Shown: in pieces, positions 58,766 through 64,000 of the stretch
Layout: each line of letters opens with the position of its first letter
How positions within the stretch are numbered: position 1 is the stretch's first letter
Assembly (NCBI RefSeq): GCF_900078335.1
Contig: NZ_FKBR01000006.1
Span: 248,001 to 312,000, forward strand
Direction: 5' to 3'
DNA: 64,000 nucleotides
Source of the DNA: Bordetella trematum
Lineage (GTDB): Bacteria > Pseudomonadota > Gammaproteobacteria > Burkholderiales > Burkholderiaceae_B
Notes under the pieces: model-generated
What the model was told of the DNA's origin: nothing
The model's database searches: none
Seen by the model: only the letters and a program-made list of their open reading frames with translations
Made by a program: the position numbers and the translations under genes

Positions 58766-60661
58766 TCAAAAGCTGAGCGTGGTGTTCAGATACCAGACCG
58801 GCGTCTTGCCCCTGCCCTCGGCGGCCAGCAGCGGTTTGCTGTAGGTCGCCGAGAAGCTCAGCAAAGGCGTGCTCAGCCGCAGCCCGATGGCCGCGCCCGC
58901 CATCTTCTGGCTGCGGCTGTCCTTCGCGTTGTTGTACAACATGCCCACATCGAGCCCGACGAAGGGAGCCAGGCGCGCCTGGCCGCCTGCGAACCACGGC
59001 AGGTTCAAGGGAAGCGTCACGGTGTTGGACAGATAGAAACCCCGGTCGCCGCTTTGCAGCGAATGGCGGTTGTACCCCCGGACGGTGTACTCATCGCCCA
59101 GGGTGAGCTGGTAACTATTGAGCAGGATCTGGCGCGAGTACTGAAACCCCAGTTGCGATTGCACCGTCAGAAACTGCCCGCCTGGGGCGAAGCTGGCTTG
59201 CCACGACAGCACGCCGTTCACGCGCGAGACATGGCCCCGGGGTTCGACCTCATCAAACGCGGCATACTGGCCTTGGTTGATGTTAAGCCCCCGGTTCCAG
59301 GAAAGGTCGACAAACCCCGCATGCCGCCCGAATTGCTTGCTCCACTGGAGCCCCAGCGTGGCATCGCTGTAGTGCTTGCTGCTGACTTCCAGCCGCGTAC
59401 CGGCCAGGTAGTTCTTGTTCTGGCGGGTTTTCAAAGCGCCGTAGAAACTCAGCTGGCTGGTGGCGTCGCGGAATACGGTTCGGGTCACGCGCAGCCCCAC
59501 GCTGCGGGAATTGCCCGCCGATTGATAGCTCAGGCCCCCGCTGCGCAGCAGGTTCTTGTATGAGTTGTAGCCGGCCTGCAGATCGATGCGCGTATAACCC
59601 AGGGGCAGGCGCAACGCCATGTCATATGACTGCTCGCCATCGTGAACGCGGTCGGCGTACCAGCGTCGGCTGGTGAACAGGGTCAGCGTATCGTTCCAGC
59701 CCAGCAGATCGCCGAAGCCCAGCGTCAGGTTGTACTTGTCCCGGCCCTGCGCCGGCACGCCGAAGCCCGAATTATCCCGTCCGAGCGAAGCCTGCATCCA
59801 GGCATTGCGCTGCACCGAGAGATTCAGATAGGAATCGCCCAGGGTGTCTGCCGGCTCGATCGCGACGGTCACCCGCTTGAAGCCGTTGTTCATGGCCTCG
59901 ATCGCCTGATCGATATCGCGGATGTTCAGGATGGCATTGCGCCAGTTCGGCATGGCCCAGCCCACCATGGAAAACTCGCGCCAGCTGCTGATCGGCCTCC
60001 CGTCGATGCGCCAACCCTTGATCCTGCCCCAGTTGACCCGCAGCTTCAGCCGCCCCGCCACCACAGCCGGCTGACCCAGGGAGATATTGGAAGTCACGTA
60101 GCCCCGCTCGTAGAGTTCGGCGGTCAGGGCGCGCACCAGCTCGAACACGCCCTGGTTGTCGAGCGGGCGATCCAGATAAGCGGCCGACTTGCGCGCCACA
60201 TTGAACAGCGGTCGCTGACCGCTGAAATCCAGGTCGACGCCGGTCAGCGTCACGGTATGGCCGCCTTTGCCCTGCGCGGGCGCGGGTGGCGCGGGCGGCG
60301 GGACCAGCGGCGTGCCCGGCGGCGCGGTCAGCGCCCGTTCGATATCCTGCTGTTGCTGGCGACGCTCCAGCAGCTGCTGCCCCAGGTTCAGGTCGCGTTG
60401 GCCCGGCGTGATCGGCAACTGACCCAGGGGTGGCGGCAGGCGCGGCGCCAGCGGGCCGCTGGCTCGCGGCCCGGCACCGGCAGGCAGGCCCTGATGGCCG
60501 GGCGCCGCGGCGGGGGTAGCCAGCGGCGCCATTCCCGGCTTGGCAGCCGGCCGGTGCTGCGCCTCGGCCGGCAGGGCTGCCAACCCCAAGCAGACAAGCA
60601 AACCGGCCCGCATCGCGGGGCGAAACAGGGCGGCATGGGATCGAAGCTTCGGCTCAGTCAT
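58766..60661 (-). CDS. fhaC: FhaC/ShlB-family two-partner secretion outer-membrane transporter
   Basis: A 631-residue Omp85-type porin that exports a large TpsA exoprotein. I start at the ATG at 60661, which gives a plausible signal peptide (ALFRPAMRAGLLVCLGLAAL, cleavage near AEAQ). A Pro/Ala/Gln-rich stretch of roughly 100 residues follows, then POTRA domains (VTLTGVDLDFSGQRPLFNV, YERGYVTSNISLG) and a beta-barrel with the loop-6 motif DEYTVRGYNR; it ends in the barrel signal YLNTTLSF. A GTG at 60835 overlapping the fimD stop would add 58 residues before the signal peptide. The fim-fhaC order matches Bordetella, so FhaB is the likely cargo; fhaB is not in the window. Confidence 0.88.
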   Translation of the reverse strand: MTEPKLRSHAALFRPAMRAGLLVCLGLAALPAEAQHRPAAKPGMAPLATPAAAPGHQGLPAGAGPRASGPLAPRLPPPLGQLPITPGQRDLNLGQQLLERRQQQQDIERALTAPPGTPLVPPPAPPAPAQGKGGHTVTLTGVDLDFSGQRPLFNVARKSAAYLDRPLDNQGVFELVRALTAELYERGYVTSNISLGQPAVVAGRLKLRVNWGRIKGWRIDGRPISSWREFSMVGWAMPNWRNAILNIRDIDQAIEAMNNGFKRVTVAIEPADTLGDSYLNLSVQRNAWMQASLGRDNSGFGVPAQGRDKYNLTLGFGDLLGWNDTLTLFTSRRWYADRVHDGEQSYDMALRLPLGYTRIDLQAGYNSYKNLLRSGGLSYQSAGNSRSVGLRVTRTVFRDATSQLSFYGALKTRQNKNYLAGTRLEVSSKHYSDATLGLQWSKQFGRHAGFVDLSWNRGLNINQGQYAAFDEVEPRGHVSRVNGVLSWQASFAPGGQFLTVQSQLGFQYSRQILLNSYQLTLGDEYTVRGYNRHSLQSGDRGFYLSNTVTLPLNLPWFAGGQARLAPFVGLDVGMLYNNAKDSRSQKMAGAAIGLRLSTPLLSFSATYSKPLLAAEGRGKTPVWYLNTTLSF

Positions 60662-60831
60662 GGCCTGGAGTCTTGAAGGGACGGTCTGAGCCGGGCGCGC
60701 TCGTGGGGCACGAGGCGTCATGCTCATGCCCACGCCTTGCGGTGGACGGGGCCCGCGACCAGGCGAGCAGGCCCCAGGGCCCTCCCGGCCGTCGGCACAG
60801 GCGAGCCCCGTTGCCGGGGTCGACGCGGTTT

Positions 60832-62052
60832 TCACTCATACTGGAAGGTCACCGTGAAACCCACGGTCAGGCGACCGGGCCGCACGGTTGCGGCAGTCTG
60901 GTAGTAGCGTGCCCGCAGAGGAACGGCGAACGCCGTATTGCCGCTTTCACCCACATTGGCTTCGTTCAGGGTCATGGCGTTGTCGAAGTTCCAGGGCGTA
61001 TCGCCCGAGGCGCCCGACAGCAACTGGATACCCATTCCGCCCGCGCCCGCCGTGGTCCCGCTGGTAGCAGCAGGCTGCCCGACGCCCACGCCCGAGGTGA
61101 AGGGGTTGTTGGCATTGATCGACAGCTTCACCAGGGTGGTGCCCTGGCAGTTCACCTGCAGGTTGAAGGACTTCATGGCCTCAGAGGTCGAGCCAACCCC
61201 CGTGAAGGAAGACCGCGGCGTCTTGGGCAGGGTTTCGTGCAGCGACCCCAGCGAGCAGCCGGACACATTGATCTTCAAGGGCGCCGAGCCGATGCCCAGC
61301 ATCATGCTGATGGGCGTGGTCAGGATCAGGCGCTTCTTGGCAGGATCGTAGTAATCCACATACCAGTCCACATTGAATATGTCGGTGTAGTTGCTCAGGT
61401 AGAAAACGCCCGACTCGGTCGAGGGCTTCACCTTGACGGCCTGATAGCTCAACATCGTATTGGCCGGGAAAACCGACACTTTGCTGCCGTCGAAGAAATA
61501 AAGCACCAGGCCGGCCTCCTTGGAAGCGTGGCCGATGACGATATCCTCTTCCGAACCGGTCAACGCCACGCCGTTGGCGCTCACCAGCTTGAGGCCCACC
61601 CCGATGCGGTCCGTGATATCGGGCAGCGACAGCACATAACCGACGCTAGACTCCACCTTGCTGAAGCGCGCGTTCGGGCGCAGCACCATAGTGAGGCCCT
61701 TCTCGTCGTTCCACGCCGCCGCCTCTTCTTCATTGCCGACGTCATACTCGCAGCTGTTCCTGACAAACCCGCTGGTCGTGACCATCCGGCCCAGCAGGGT
61801 GCCTACGGGCGTGCTGGGCGTGACCCGCGCCTCGCCCCGGATATTGGGGATCTCTCCACTGGCGCAGACCGCGGTCGCCGCTGCCGCCGGGGCGACCGCC
61901 GCCAGGCTGGCCGCAAGCAGCCACAATGACCAGCTGGTGCGCCGCCTCACGCCAAGGGCCCGGGATGCCCAGATCGCGGGGAGAAAACCAGGGTTTGTCT
62001 GATTGCGGTCAGGCTTCGCATCGACGCGAAGCCTCGTTTGCCATTCACTCAT
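60832..62052 (-). CDS. FimD-like fimbrial tip adhesin, second copy
   Basis: A 406-residue exported protein closely similar over its full length to the next gene (62045-63145). Shared blocks are GEARVTPSTPVGTLLG, SCEYDVG, TMVLRPNAR, TDRIGVGLKLVSANG and VSGCSLGSLHETLPK. The C-terminal pilin-like domain ends VGFTVTFQYE, like a chaperone-usher donor-strand motif. Its ATG overlaps the preceding stop by 8 bp; that start gives 35 residues before the hydrophobic core. A GTG at 61950 would give a standard signal peptide (RRRTSWSLWLLAASLAAVAP). The likely role is a second tip adhesin or a receptor-specificity variant. Confidence 0.8.
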   Translation of the reverse strand: MSEWQTRLRVDAKPDRNQTNPGFLPAIWASRALGVRRRTSWSLWLLAASLAAVAPAAAATAVCASGEIPNIRGEARVTPSTPVGTLLGRMVTTSGFVRNSCEYDVGNEEEAAAWNDEKGLTMVLRPNARFSKVESSVGYVLSLPDITDRIGVGLKLVSANGVALTGSEEDIVIGHASKEAGLVLYFFDGSKVSVFPANTMLSYQAVKVKPSTESGVFYLSNYTDIFNVDWYVDYYDPAKKRLILTTPISMMLGIGSAPLKINVSGCSLGSLHETLPKTPRSSFTGVGSTSEAMKSFNLQVNCQGTTLVKLSINANNPFTSGVGVGQPAATSGTTAGAGGMGIQLLSGASGDTPWNFDNAMTLNEANVGESGNTAFAVPLRARYYQTAATVRPGRLTVGFTVTFQYE

Positions 62053-63145
62053 ATTCGAGCGTCGCCGTGAAGCCGACGCTCAGCCCGCCTGGGCGAACCG
62101 TATCGTCGGTTTGGTAATAACGCGCCCACAGGGGCACGTTGAAAGTCCTGTTTACGCCCTCGCCGACATTGGCCTCGCCCAGCAGGATGCGACGGTCGAA
62201 ATCCCAGGCGGTCTTGGTGGTGCCGTCCGACAACAGCTGAATGCCGACCCCCTGCGACAGCCCCTCGCCGCTGCCGGTGGGCAGACCCACGCCCTGCGCG
62301 TCGCTATAGCGTTTGTTCGGGCTGATGGACAGATTGACCGTGCCGGTGCCGTAGCAGGTGACCGGCAGGCTCAGCGCCTTTTCATCCGAGACTGTGCCCC
62401 GCGCGCGAAAATCCGCGCGCGGCTTCTTGGGCAAGGTCTCCCGCAAGCTGCCCAATGAGCACCCGGAAACATTCAGCTTCAGCCCCCCGATGCCCAGGAT
62501 CATGCCGACCGGAGTGGTTGCCACCAGACGCCGGTCGGCGGTGTCGTAATCGACGTACCAGTCGACCTCGAACAGGTCCGGGTAGTTGCTGACATAGAAG
62601 ACCCCGGACGTCTTGCCCTCCTTGACCTTGATGGCCTGGTACTGGATGTTGGTGTTGGCCGGAAACACCTGGACATTGCTGCCATTGAAAAAATACTGCA
62701 CCACATCGTCTGTCTTCGGGCTATGGCCGATGACGATTTCCGTCGCATCGGCGCTGATCGGCTTGCCGTTGCTGCTGACCAGCCGCAAGCCCACCCCGAT
62801 CCGATCCGTAAGGCCGGGCAAGGCCAGCACAAAACCATAGGGGTTCTCCACCTTCGGATGGCGCGCATTGGGGCGCAGCACCATCGTCACGGATTTCTCG
62901 AAGCTCCAGGCGGCCGCCTCGGTCTCGTCACCCACGTCGTACTCGCAGGAACCCGTCACAAAGGAAGAGCTGGAGGTCAGATTGCCCAGCGGCGCGCCCA
63001 GCGGGGTGGCGGGAGTCACGCGCGCCTCGCCCTGGACATTGAGGATCCGTCCCGAACCGCAATTGGCAGTCTGGGCCATGACGGGTCCGCAACCCAGGGC
63101 CAGCCCCAGCCACAGGTAGAGGCCCCAGCCATGGAGACCGCTCAT
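62045..63145 (-). CDS. fimD: FimD-like fimbrial tip adhesin, first copy
   Basis: A 366-residue exported protein. The ATG at 63145 overlaps the usher stop as ATGA and gives a clean signal peptide (GWGLYLWLGLALGCGPVMAQ). The N-terminal half has no common domain name but matches Bordetella FimD in context; cysteine pairs are in TANCGSG with GSCEYDVG and in VSGCSLG with VTCYGTG. The last 120 residues look like a pilin domain ending VGFTATLEYE. FimD proteins cap Bordetella type 1-like fimbriae and bind host receptors. It lies between the usher gene and its own paralogue. Confidence 0.82.
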   Translation of the reverse strand: MSGLHGWGLYLWLGLALGCGPVMAQTANCGSGRILNVQGEARVTPATPLGAPLGNLTSSSSFVTGSCEYDVGDETEAAAWSFEKSVTMVLRPNARHPKVENPYGFVLALPGLTDRIGVGLRLVSSNGKPISADATEIVIGHSPKTDDVVQYFFNGSNVQVFPANTNIQYQAIKVKEGKTSGVFYVSNYPDLFEVDWYVDYDTADRRLVATTPVGMILGIGGLKLNVSGCSLGSLRETLPKKPRADFRARGTVSDEKALSLPVTCYGTGTVNLSISPNKRYSDAQGVGLPTGSGEGLSQGVGIQLLSDGTTKTAWDFDRRILLGEANVGEGVNRTFNVPLWARYYQTDDTVRPGGLSVGFTATLEYE

Positions 63146-64000
63146 GACGGCCCCCCGCAGCGCAGCGGGATCAGCGGGACCCTGCCCTCGCCCCGGGCCC
63201 CATCGCCCTGCAGGCGATAAGGCACGCGGCATGATTCGCCATTCGTGAAGCGCAGGATCAGTACGCCCTGATCGGTGACGCCGCGCAGCAGGGCGCGCCC
63301 GCCCTGCCCGATGGTGCCGATGATGGTGCCGTCCTGGTCGTGAATGGGCGTGCCGAAAGGCAGACGCGCGCGATCCTCCGGCCCGATCACCAGCAAGGCC
63401 GCCCGCTCGCGCTTCGTTTTGAAGACCAGCGGCACCACGGCGCCGGCGCGCGGGATCGCCTCCTCGGTGGTGGACTGCAACTCGACATCCAGAGAGAGGT
63501 TTTCGGGCGAGATCTGCACCTCGTTGACCGAGTATGGCGACAAGGAAACCAGGCCGTAGCCATTGCCATCCAGCTTGGCGTTGCCCATATTGGCGATGGT
63601 GGCCCCGCCGGCGTCGCGTGCCTCGATCAGCCCGATGCTGTCAGGCAGCGTCTGGCCCAGGGTGACCCCACCGCCGTGGATCACCAATCCGCCATTGCCG
63701 TTGACCGACCATTGGGTCGTCTCGCCCTGGCGGCTGGCGGCGGCCGACACGTAGCCGTAGCGCCCCACGTAGGAGGCGTTCAGCCCGTAGCCTTGCTGGC
63801 GCTGCGCATCGCGCGTGATGTCCAGCCCATAAGAGAGCGCGCGATTGCGTCCCACGGTGTTGTCATAGGAAATCCGCTCGGTGCGGCCCCGACCGGAGTC
63901 CTGCAGCACGGTACTGCGCAATACGCCGCCCGTTTTCCAGCCGGACAGGGGAATGGACAGGTTCAACATCACCTGACGCCCGGACCCGAAACCGCCCTGG
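63142..64000 (-). CDS. fimC: Fimbrial outer-membrane usher protein (3' part)
   Basis: The C-terminal 285 residues of an usher; the gene continues beyond the right edge. It shows late barrel strands (RQVMLNLSIPLSGW, QQGYGLNASYVGRYGYVSAA), GLVIHGGGVTLGQTLPDSIG, YGLVSLSPYSVNEVQISPEN, and the C-terminal domains (VPLVFKTKRERAALLVI, FTNGESCRVPYRLQGDG), all usual in PapC/FimD-type ushers. In Bordetella nomenclature the usher is FimC. It exports and polymerises chaperone-bound fimbrial subunits, including the two tip-adhesin paralogues downstream. Confidence 0.9.
   Translation of the reverse strand, partial: QGGFGSGRQVMLNLSIPLSGWKTGGVLRSTVLQDSGRGRTERISYDNTVGRNRALSYGLDITRDAQRQQGYGLNASYVGRYGYVSAAASRQGETTQWSVNGNGGLVIHGGGVTLGQTLPDSIGLIEARDAGGATIANMGNAKLDGNGYGLVSLSPYSVNEVQISPENLSLDVELQSTTEEAIPRAGAVVPLVFKTKRERAALLVIGPEDRARLPFGTPIHDQDGTIIGTIGQGGRALLRGVTDQGVLILRFTNGESCRVPYRLQGDGARGEGRVPLIPLRCGGPS

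Follow-up and report, generated by a model that had tools for sequence, protein, structure and literature searches.

The 64,000-nucleotide stretch analysed here, referred to as the window (G000:C6:248001-312000; about 65% GC), comes from the 4.44 Mb, 50-contig source genome of Bordetella trematum (G000). It contains two intact, consecutive genes for FimD-type tip adhesins, fimD1 and fimD2, which sit between the fimC usher gene and fhaC in a fim-fha operon. The encoded proteins, D1 and D2, are 56% identical, each is predicted to combine a receptor-binding domain with a pilin domain, and neither has the N-terminal donor strand of shaft pilins. Based on their sequences and predicted structures, we consider it probable that the two are paralogous alternative tips that compete for a single usher, with one tip per pilus. 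A first-pass annotation of the window had proposed the tandem duplication and had held that other Bordetella carry one fimD at this locus. The duplication is confirmed, and the second statement is supported by the single copy in all six congeners that have the locus.

Two adhesin genes in the fim-fha operon

The operon lies on the minus strand in the order fhaB-fimB-fimC-fimD1-fimD2-fhaC. The window edge falls within the usher gene, and the remaining operon was read from the adjoining sequence of the same contig (locus L002). The features in and around the gene pair are:

62045..63145, minus strand: fimD1, predicted two-domain tip adhesin (open reading frame (ORF) from an ATG; Pfam Fimbrial PF00419 in the C-terminal part; predicted fold)
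60832..62052, minus strand: fimD2, second predicted two-domain tip adhesin (ORF; 56% identity to fimD1; predicted fold)
63142..64000, continuing to G000:C6:313745, minus strand: fimC usher, C-terminal part (PF00577 and PF13953)
58766..60835, minus strand: fhaC, TpsB-type outer membrane transporter, downstream of fimD2 (PF03865, PF08479, PF17287)
62011..62034, minus strand: perfect 9-base-pair hairpin without a T run in the fimD1-fimD2 spacer (fold prediction)

The fimD1 ATG overlaps the usher stop codon by 4 bases, and the upstream extension of its ORF (63146-63232) falls within usher coding sequence. Between the listed fimD2 ATG and the fimD1 stop codon the overlap is 8 bases; an alternative GTG start at 61950, 34 codons downstream and directly before the putative signal peptide, fits that peptide better. 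For fhaC, reading of the translation makes an ATG near 60661 the likelier true start. The complete FimC usher has 867 residues (L002 6143-8746), and fhaB, named from its position and its matches to congeners, encodes 2912 residues. Many usher and chaperone models of NCBIfam matched with strong E-values, yet under their curated equivalog cut-offs.

A search with D1 at an E-value of 1e-10 covered 15 genomes of the genus, including two that are less than 80% complete and one of this species. Seven had a match: G000 with two copies and six congeners with one, located in each case between the usher gene and fhaC. These congeners are B. hinzii LMG 13501 (G004), B. pseudohinzii 8-296-03 (G007), B. 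genomosp. 12 AU6712 (G010) and three further genomes, among them the pertussis-like G006 and the 3.7 Mb G005. Their loci (fhaB-fimA-fimB-fimC-fimD-fhaC) share with G000 the chaperone-usher-FimD-fhaC order behind fhaB, but they carry one fimD rather than two and have a fimA ORF between fhaB and fimB, where G000 has none. A tree of the eight FimD proteins joins D1 and D2 as sisters (support 100/100), which places the duplication on the G000 lineage within this sample. When 268 genomes of the family were searched with a FimD profile at an E-value of 1e-15, 23 matched and G000 alone gave two matches; at most eight candidates were scored per genome, and weak second copies may escape. Outside the genus only the pilin domain was matched, so the family count leaves room for tandem pairs there, and the family genome G057 indeed has one. 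The type II secretion gene GspG is missing from 9 of the 15 genus genomes, G000 among them, and present in B. hinzii; set beside PMC3813182, PMC4290983, PMC11768120 and PMC5045587, its absence is weak evidence that the species is B. trematum.

The fimD1-fimD2 hairpin is a possible mRNA segment boundary. Its energy is unremarkable, and the stretch 61940-62060 as a whole folded no better than shuffled sequences (z -0.35). No terminator-like site was found in the spacer, and the promoter and terminator counts of the region equal those of shuffles. A promoter or terminator between the two genes was considered and rejected: the two promoter-like sites of the region lie on the opposite strand.

On the far side of the operon, a gene for the large subunit of a tripartite ATP-independent periplasmic (TRAP) transporter adjoins fhaC. 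Its position is shared by G004 and G007 (93% identical) and, with the gene in two pieces at 87%, by G006; the fetched stretches of the other three congeners gave no match. The two matched pieces in G006 (L016 4912-6202) overlap in a frameshift-like manner. In G005 (L014 11335-13856), fimB is matched in three separate pieces, and an ORF resembling a transposase (ISL3 type by eye) extends into the fimA region on the same strand.

Predicted architecture and divergence of the two copies

Structure models of D1 and D2 were built from 15-row alignments and have a mean predicted local distance difference test (pLDDT) score of 77.9 for D1 and 82.1 for D2, the latter being fairly confident. In both models, residues 1 to about 205 match the receptor-binding domains of UcaD and its relatives, and the rest matches type 1 pilins. 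The predicted arrangement, an N-terminal receptor-binding domain followed by a C-terminal pilin domain, is that of a two-domain chaperone-usher tip adhesin. The lack of an N-terminal donor strand agrees with this class: with the mature start cut by eye, 4 (D1) and 3 (D2) residues precede the first cysteine, compared with 14, counted from the DGT motif, in the 51 shaft-type pilins listed, and the shaft-pilin donor-strand motif is absent from both copies. By the established logic of donor-strand exchange, only a terminal position is open to a subunit that lacks a donor strand. D1 and D2 should therefore exclude each other on one fibre.

The predicted receptor-binding fold is common to D1, D2 and the adhesins MrkD, Abp1D, Abp2D, UcaD and F17G, although sequence identity is low (8-15% among the matches listed). 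A profile restricted to Bordetella sequences found pilins but no receptor-binding domains, those of these five adhesins included. The Abp and MrkD sequence matches thus depend on the distant members of alignment A2, and the basis for assigning a receptor domain is the comparison of folds. For D1, whole-chain Foldseek template modelling (TM) scores are low (0.15-0.34 by query among the 50 matches listed), perhaps due to a differing domain angle. A single-sequence search of the PDB at E-values up to 1 gave no match for D1 and only chance matches to scribble for D2. D2 matched no Pfam family at an E-value of 0.1 and nothing in PHROGs, where it was the only query; NCBIfam returned nothing for D1 and, for D2, two weak fimbrial matches far below cut-off (StiA, 20.8 of 229 bits; FimF, 13.4 of 200). 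The adhesin fold taken alone points towards the gamma4 clade of chaperone-usher systems, to which MrkD, GafD and Abp are assigned in PMC9942807.

BLASTP aligned D1 and D2 with 208 of 369 residues identical (E 3e-141), far beyond chance. Each gene has the terminal stop codon as its only one and a GC content at third codon positions (GC3) of 0.82, and each mature protein has two cysteines in each domain. The blocks TMVLRPNAR and TDRIGVGL, which the first-pass annotation had named as kept, are identical in the two copies. The similarity over the whole length that it had described is borne out except in the signal region, where 6 of 26 positions are identical; both copies have a hydrophobic N-terminal stretch, judged by eye. 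That the loops between the blocks differ was borne out weakly and not beyond that: the predicted loops are identical at 71 of 139 positions and the predicted strands and helices at 122 of 190 (Fisher p 0.02, uncorrected, with 10 protein pairs tested).

The lower conservation of loops is the sole result in favour of a further suggestion, namely that selection has acted on the binding surfaces. At the level of domains the suggestion is not supported. The receptor domains of D1 and D2 are identical at 118 of 188 positions (62.8%) and the pilin domains at 76 of 140 (54.3%), whereas the pilin domain is more alike than the receptor domain in all six pairs of the four hinzii-group orthologues (62.5% for the receptor domain and 72.1% for the pilin domain between B. 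hinzii and B. pseudohinzii; 58.7% and 75.0% between B. genomosp. 12 and G005). The receptor domain is ahead in only two of the 28 FimD pairs, D1-D2 and, narrowly, D1-pseudohinzii (36.8 versus 34.6%). Set against three close orthologue pairs, the domain contrast of D1-D2 gave interaction z values of 1.56, 2.44 and 1.98, which are uncorrected and based on slightly different domain limits. The ratio of nonsynonymous to synonymous substitution rates (dN/dS; Nei-Gojobori) is 0.35 overall, with 0.34 in the receptor domain and 0.30 in the pilin part; these values are rough because dS, at about 1, is near saturation. Recent gene conversion between the copies was considered and rejected: identity ranges from 0.38 to 0.72 in sliding 120-base steps, and no tract is near-identical. 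As judged from the sequences, diversifying binding surfaces receive at most weak support, and the pilin half, which would serve assembly, has changed at least as much.

Missing fimA and the pilin arrays

The operon of G000 also differs in its shaft gene. A FimA-type pilin ORF is present between fhaB and fimB in all six congeners (L011-L016; in G006 it is shorter, at 145 residues), while in G000 the two genes are separated by 65 bases (L002 9651-9715) without fimA. Searched with FimA, G000 yielded 25 matches and the six further genomes with any match between 4 and 11, which puts the pilin number of G000 far above that of every congener searched. The matches in G000 represent 24 genes, none of them in the fim operon: contig 33 has fourteen, contig 46 has nine and contig 19 a single one. 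Those on the first two contigs form arrays:

L083 5986-16178 (G000:C33): array of 14 FimA-type pilin genes, without an usher; RND-efflux-like gene (by eye) on one side
L082 6138-12813 (G000:C46): array of 9 FimA-type pilin genes, without an usher; RND-efflux-like gene (by eye) on one side

On contig 33, the C-termini of two of the 14 genes are disrupted, possibly through draft errors, and both genes were used unaltered. At an E-value of 1e-10, FimC and a second usher on contig 19 are the only ones in the genome; both arrays thus lack an usher. All 24 pilins have almost identical donor strands. In a pilin tree of 57 rows, a branch with a support of 100 (Shimodaira-Hasegawa-like approximate likelihood ratio test) separates the five full-length FimA proteins from the rest, with no G000 member on their side, and long branches meet there; the tree leaves out G004:C18:58105 (motif not found), G007:C19:80, two partial G010 matches and the short fimA of G006.

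The classical fim genes undergo phase variation through poly-C tracts. For the G000 pilins this was considered and rejected: within the region 45 to 330 bases ahead of the DGT motif, C runs in the 24 genes do not exceed 7, although the draft assembly may have misread such tracts. In the same region, the three G006 pilins have C runs of 8, 11 and 19. Most likely, the array pilins are assembled through FimB and FimC, by analogy with B. bronchiseptica, where unlinked fim genes are served in this way (PMC12952627).

Probable alternative tips, competing explanations and tandem adhesins elsewhere

If D1 and D2 are alternative tips, each would enter the periplasm and be bound by the FimB chaperone, and either would be able to start a pilus at the FimC usher. 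As a terminal two-domain adhesin, D1 or D2 would be carried by a given pilus, and the cell would make a mixed population of tips, possibly with different or complementary receptors. With no fimA in the operon, pilin genes at other sites of the genome would supply the shafts. Several observations weigh against this explanation. The species is sampled by one genome, the pilin-domain half of the D1 model is partly of low confidence (blocks with pLDDT 50-70), and D2 has a signal region unrelated to that of D1 and an ambiguous start codon. The dN/dS values are rough, and a pairwise ratio is no proof that each copy is separately constrained. The sequences also give no indication of different receptors, since it is not the receptor domains that have diverged faster.

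The domain pattern is best fitted by a rival that we regard as rather unlikely overall, in which the two proteins share a receptor and their pilin domains are suited to different shaft pilins or to different chaperone or usher conditions. The lower identity of the pilin domains, a pattern found in only two of 28 pairs, the interaction z values and a genome without fimA but with far more other pilins all speak for it. It is weakened by the donor strands of the 24 pilins, which are so nearly identical that they leave little for acceptor grooves to distinguish, and by z values without correction that derive from a few non-independent pairs. Two equivalent tips that raise pilus initiation and bind the same receptor would agree with the 62.8% identity of the receptor domains and the overall dN/dS of 0.35. 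Such redundancy seems unlikely to us, with 37% of receptor-domain positions differing and with copies that are long-lived (dS about 1); redundant gene copies are usually lost.

The ambiguous start of fimD2 and the hairpin-bearing spacer ahead of it could mean that one copy is silent or decaying. We consider this improbable, given that both ORFs are intact with a GC3 of 0.82 and conserved cysteines and that the fold predicted for D2 is fairly confident (mean pLDDT 82.1). The suggestion that two tip proteins for one usher could give alternative receptor binding or a two-part tip is retained in its first form, as the alternative tips favoured here. The second form, a fibre with one adhesin stacked on the other, has the adjacency of the genes in one operon in its favour, but in both copies the segment before the first cysteine is too short for an N-terminal donor strand, which makes such a tip highly improbable.

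The explanation by alternative tips can be extended, tentatively and with the odds against it, to a mix-and-match pilus. Under such a scheme, the operon fimA was lost, the shaft pilins came to number 24 (23 of them in the two arrays without an usher), and a second tip was gained, with the receptor fold kept and the base changed. One usher could then serve many shaft-by-tip combinations, a standing surface variation without poly-C switching. Were both tips assembled, one usher with two terminal adhesins of the same operon would be a clean natural system for studying tip choice. More generally, in Bordetella outside the classical species, the fimbrial make-up can differ in tip and shaft alike.

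Tandem tip adhesins recur in other genera. Two complete two-domain adhesin ORFs in tandem were found in six of 37 loci of named genomes fetched for FimD similarity and in one of 16 loci of further family genomes (G057). The 16 loci had about 1.5 kb of flank, and more pairs may escape; four regions were enlarged (G057, G019, G056 and G044), with a pair in G057 only. The seven additional pairs are thus those of Cedecea davisae, C. neteri, Rahnella woolbedingensis, Cupriavidus lacunae, Dyella sp. ASV24, D. solisilvae and G057. Like the G000 pair, all seven have chaperone and usher matches ahead of the two adhesin ORFs on one strand; they also have a pilin ORF in front on the same strand. The pairs with the strongest domain contrast are:

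L132 7081-9591: tandem adhesins of G057 (receptor domain 72/161, pilin domain 129/138 identical)
L072 9071-11367, L073 9131-11419 and L076 9029-11589: tandem pairs of Cupriavidus and Dyella (receptor domain 20-34%, pilin domain 53-61% identical)

In these four pairs the receptor domains are 20-45% identical and the pilin domains 53-94%, unlike in G000; we read the G057 pattern as diversification of the heads or homogenisation of the bases. In both Cedecea pairs and in Rahnella, the identities of the two domains are about equal. Among the eight tandem pairs, the receptor domain is ahead by more than five points in G000 alone. In an adhesin tree, the two copies group together for G000 and, loosely, for G057. 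Each Cedecea copy is grouped with the corresponding copy of the second species, which makes that duplication older than the species split; the Dyella and Cupriavidus copies are not sisters, so duplication in place is not demonstrated for them. With one of the eight pairs combining near-identical pilin domains with very different receptor domains, the question of tip choice would become testable across genera.

A tandem adhesin pair is described in the ste fimbrial cluster of Salmonella (PMC3373541), the sole precedent among the literature matches listed for Bordetella fimbriae and for two or tandem tip adhesins. As described there, the ste cluster has the same arrangement as G000, with two tandem adhesin genes behind one usher, a comparison by arrangement only and with a different genus. 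The novelty is therefore lower than the first-pass annotation had suggested. Tandem tip adhesins are a kind already known, to which G000 adds another case; what sets it apart is its unusual domain pattern, together with the lack of fimA in the operon and the presence of pilin arrays.
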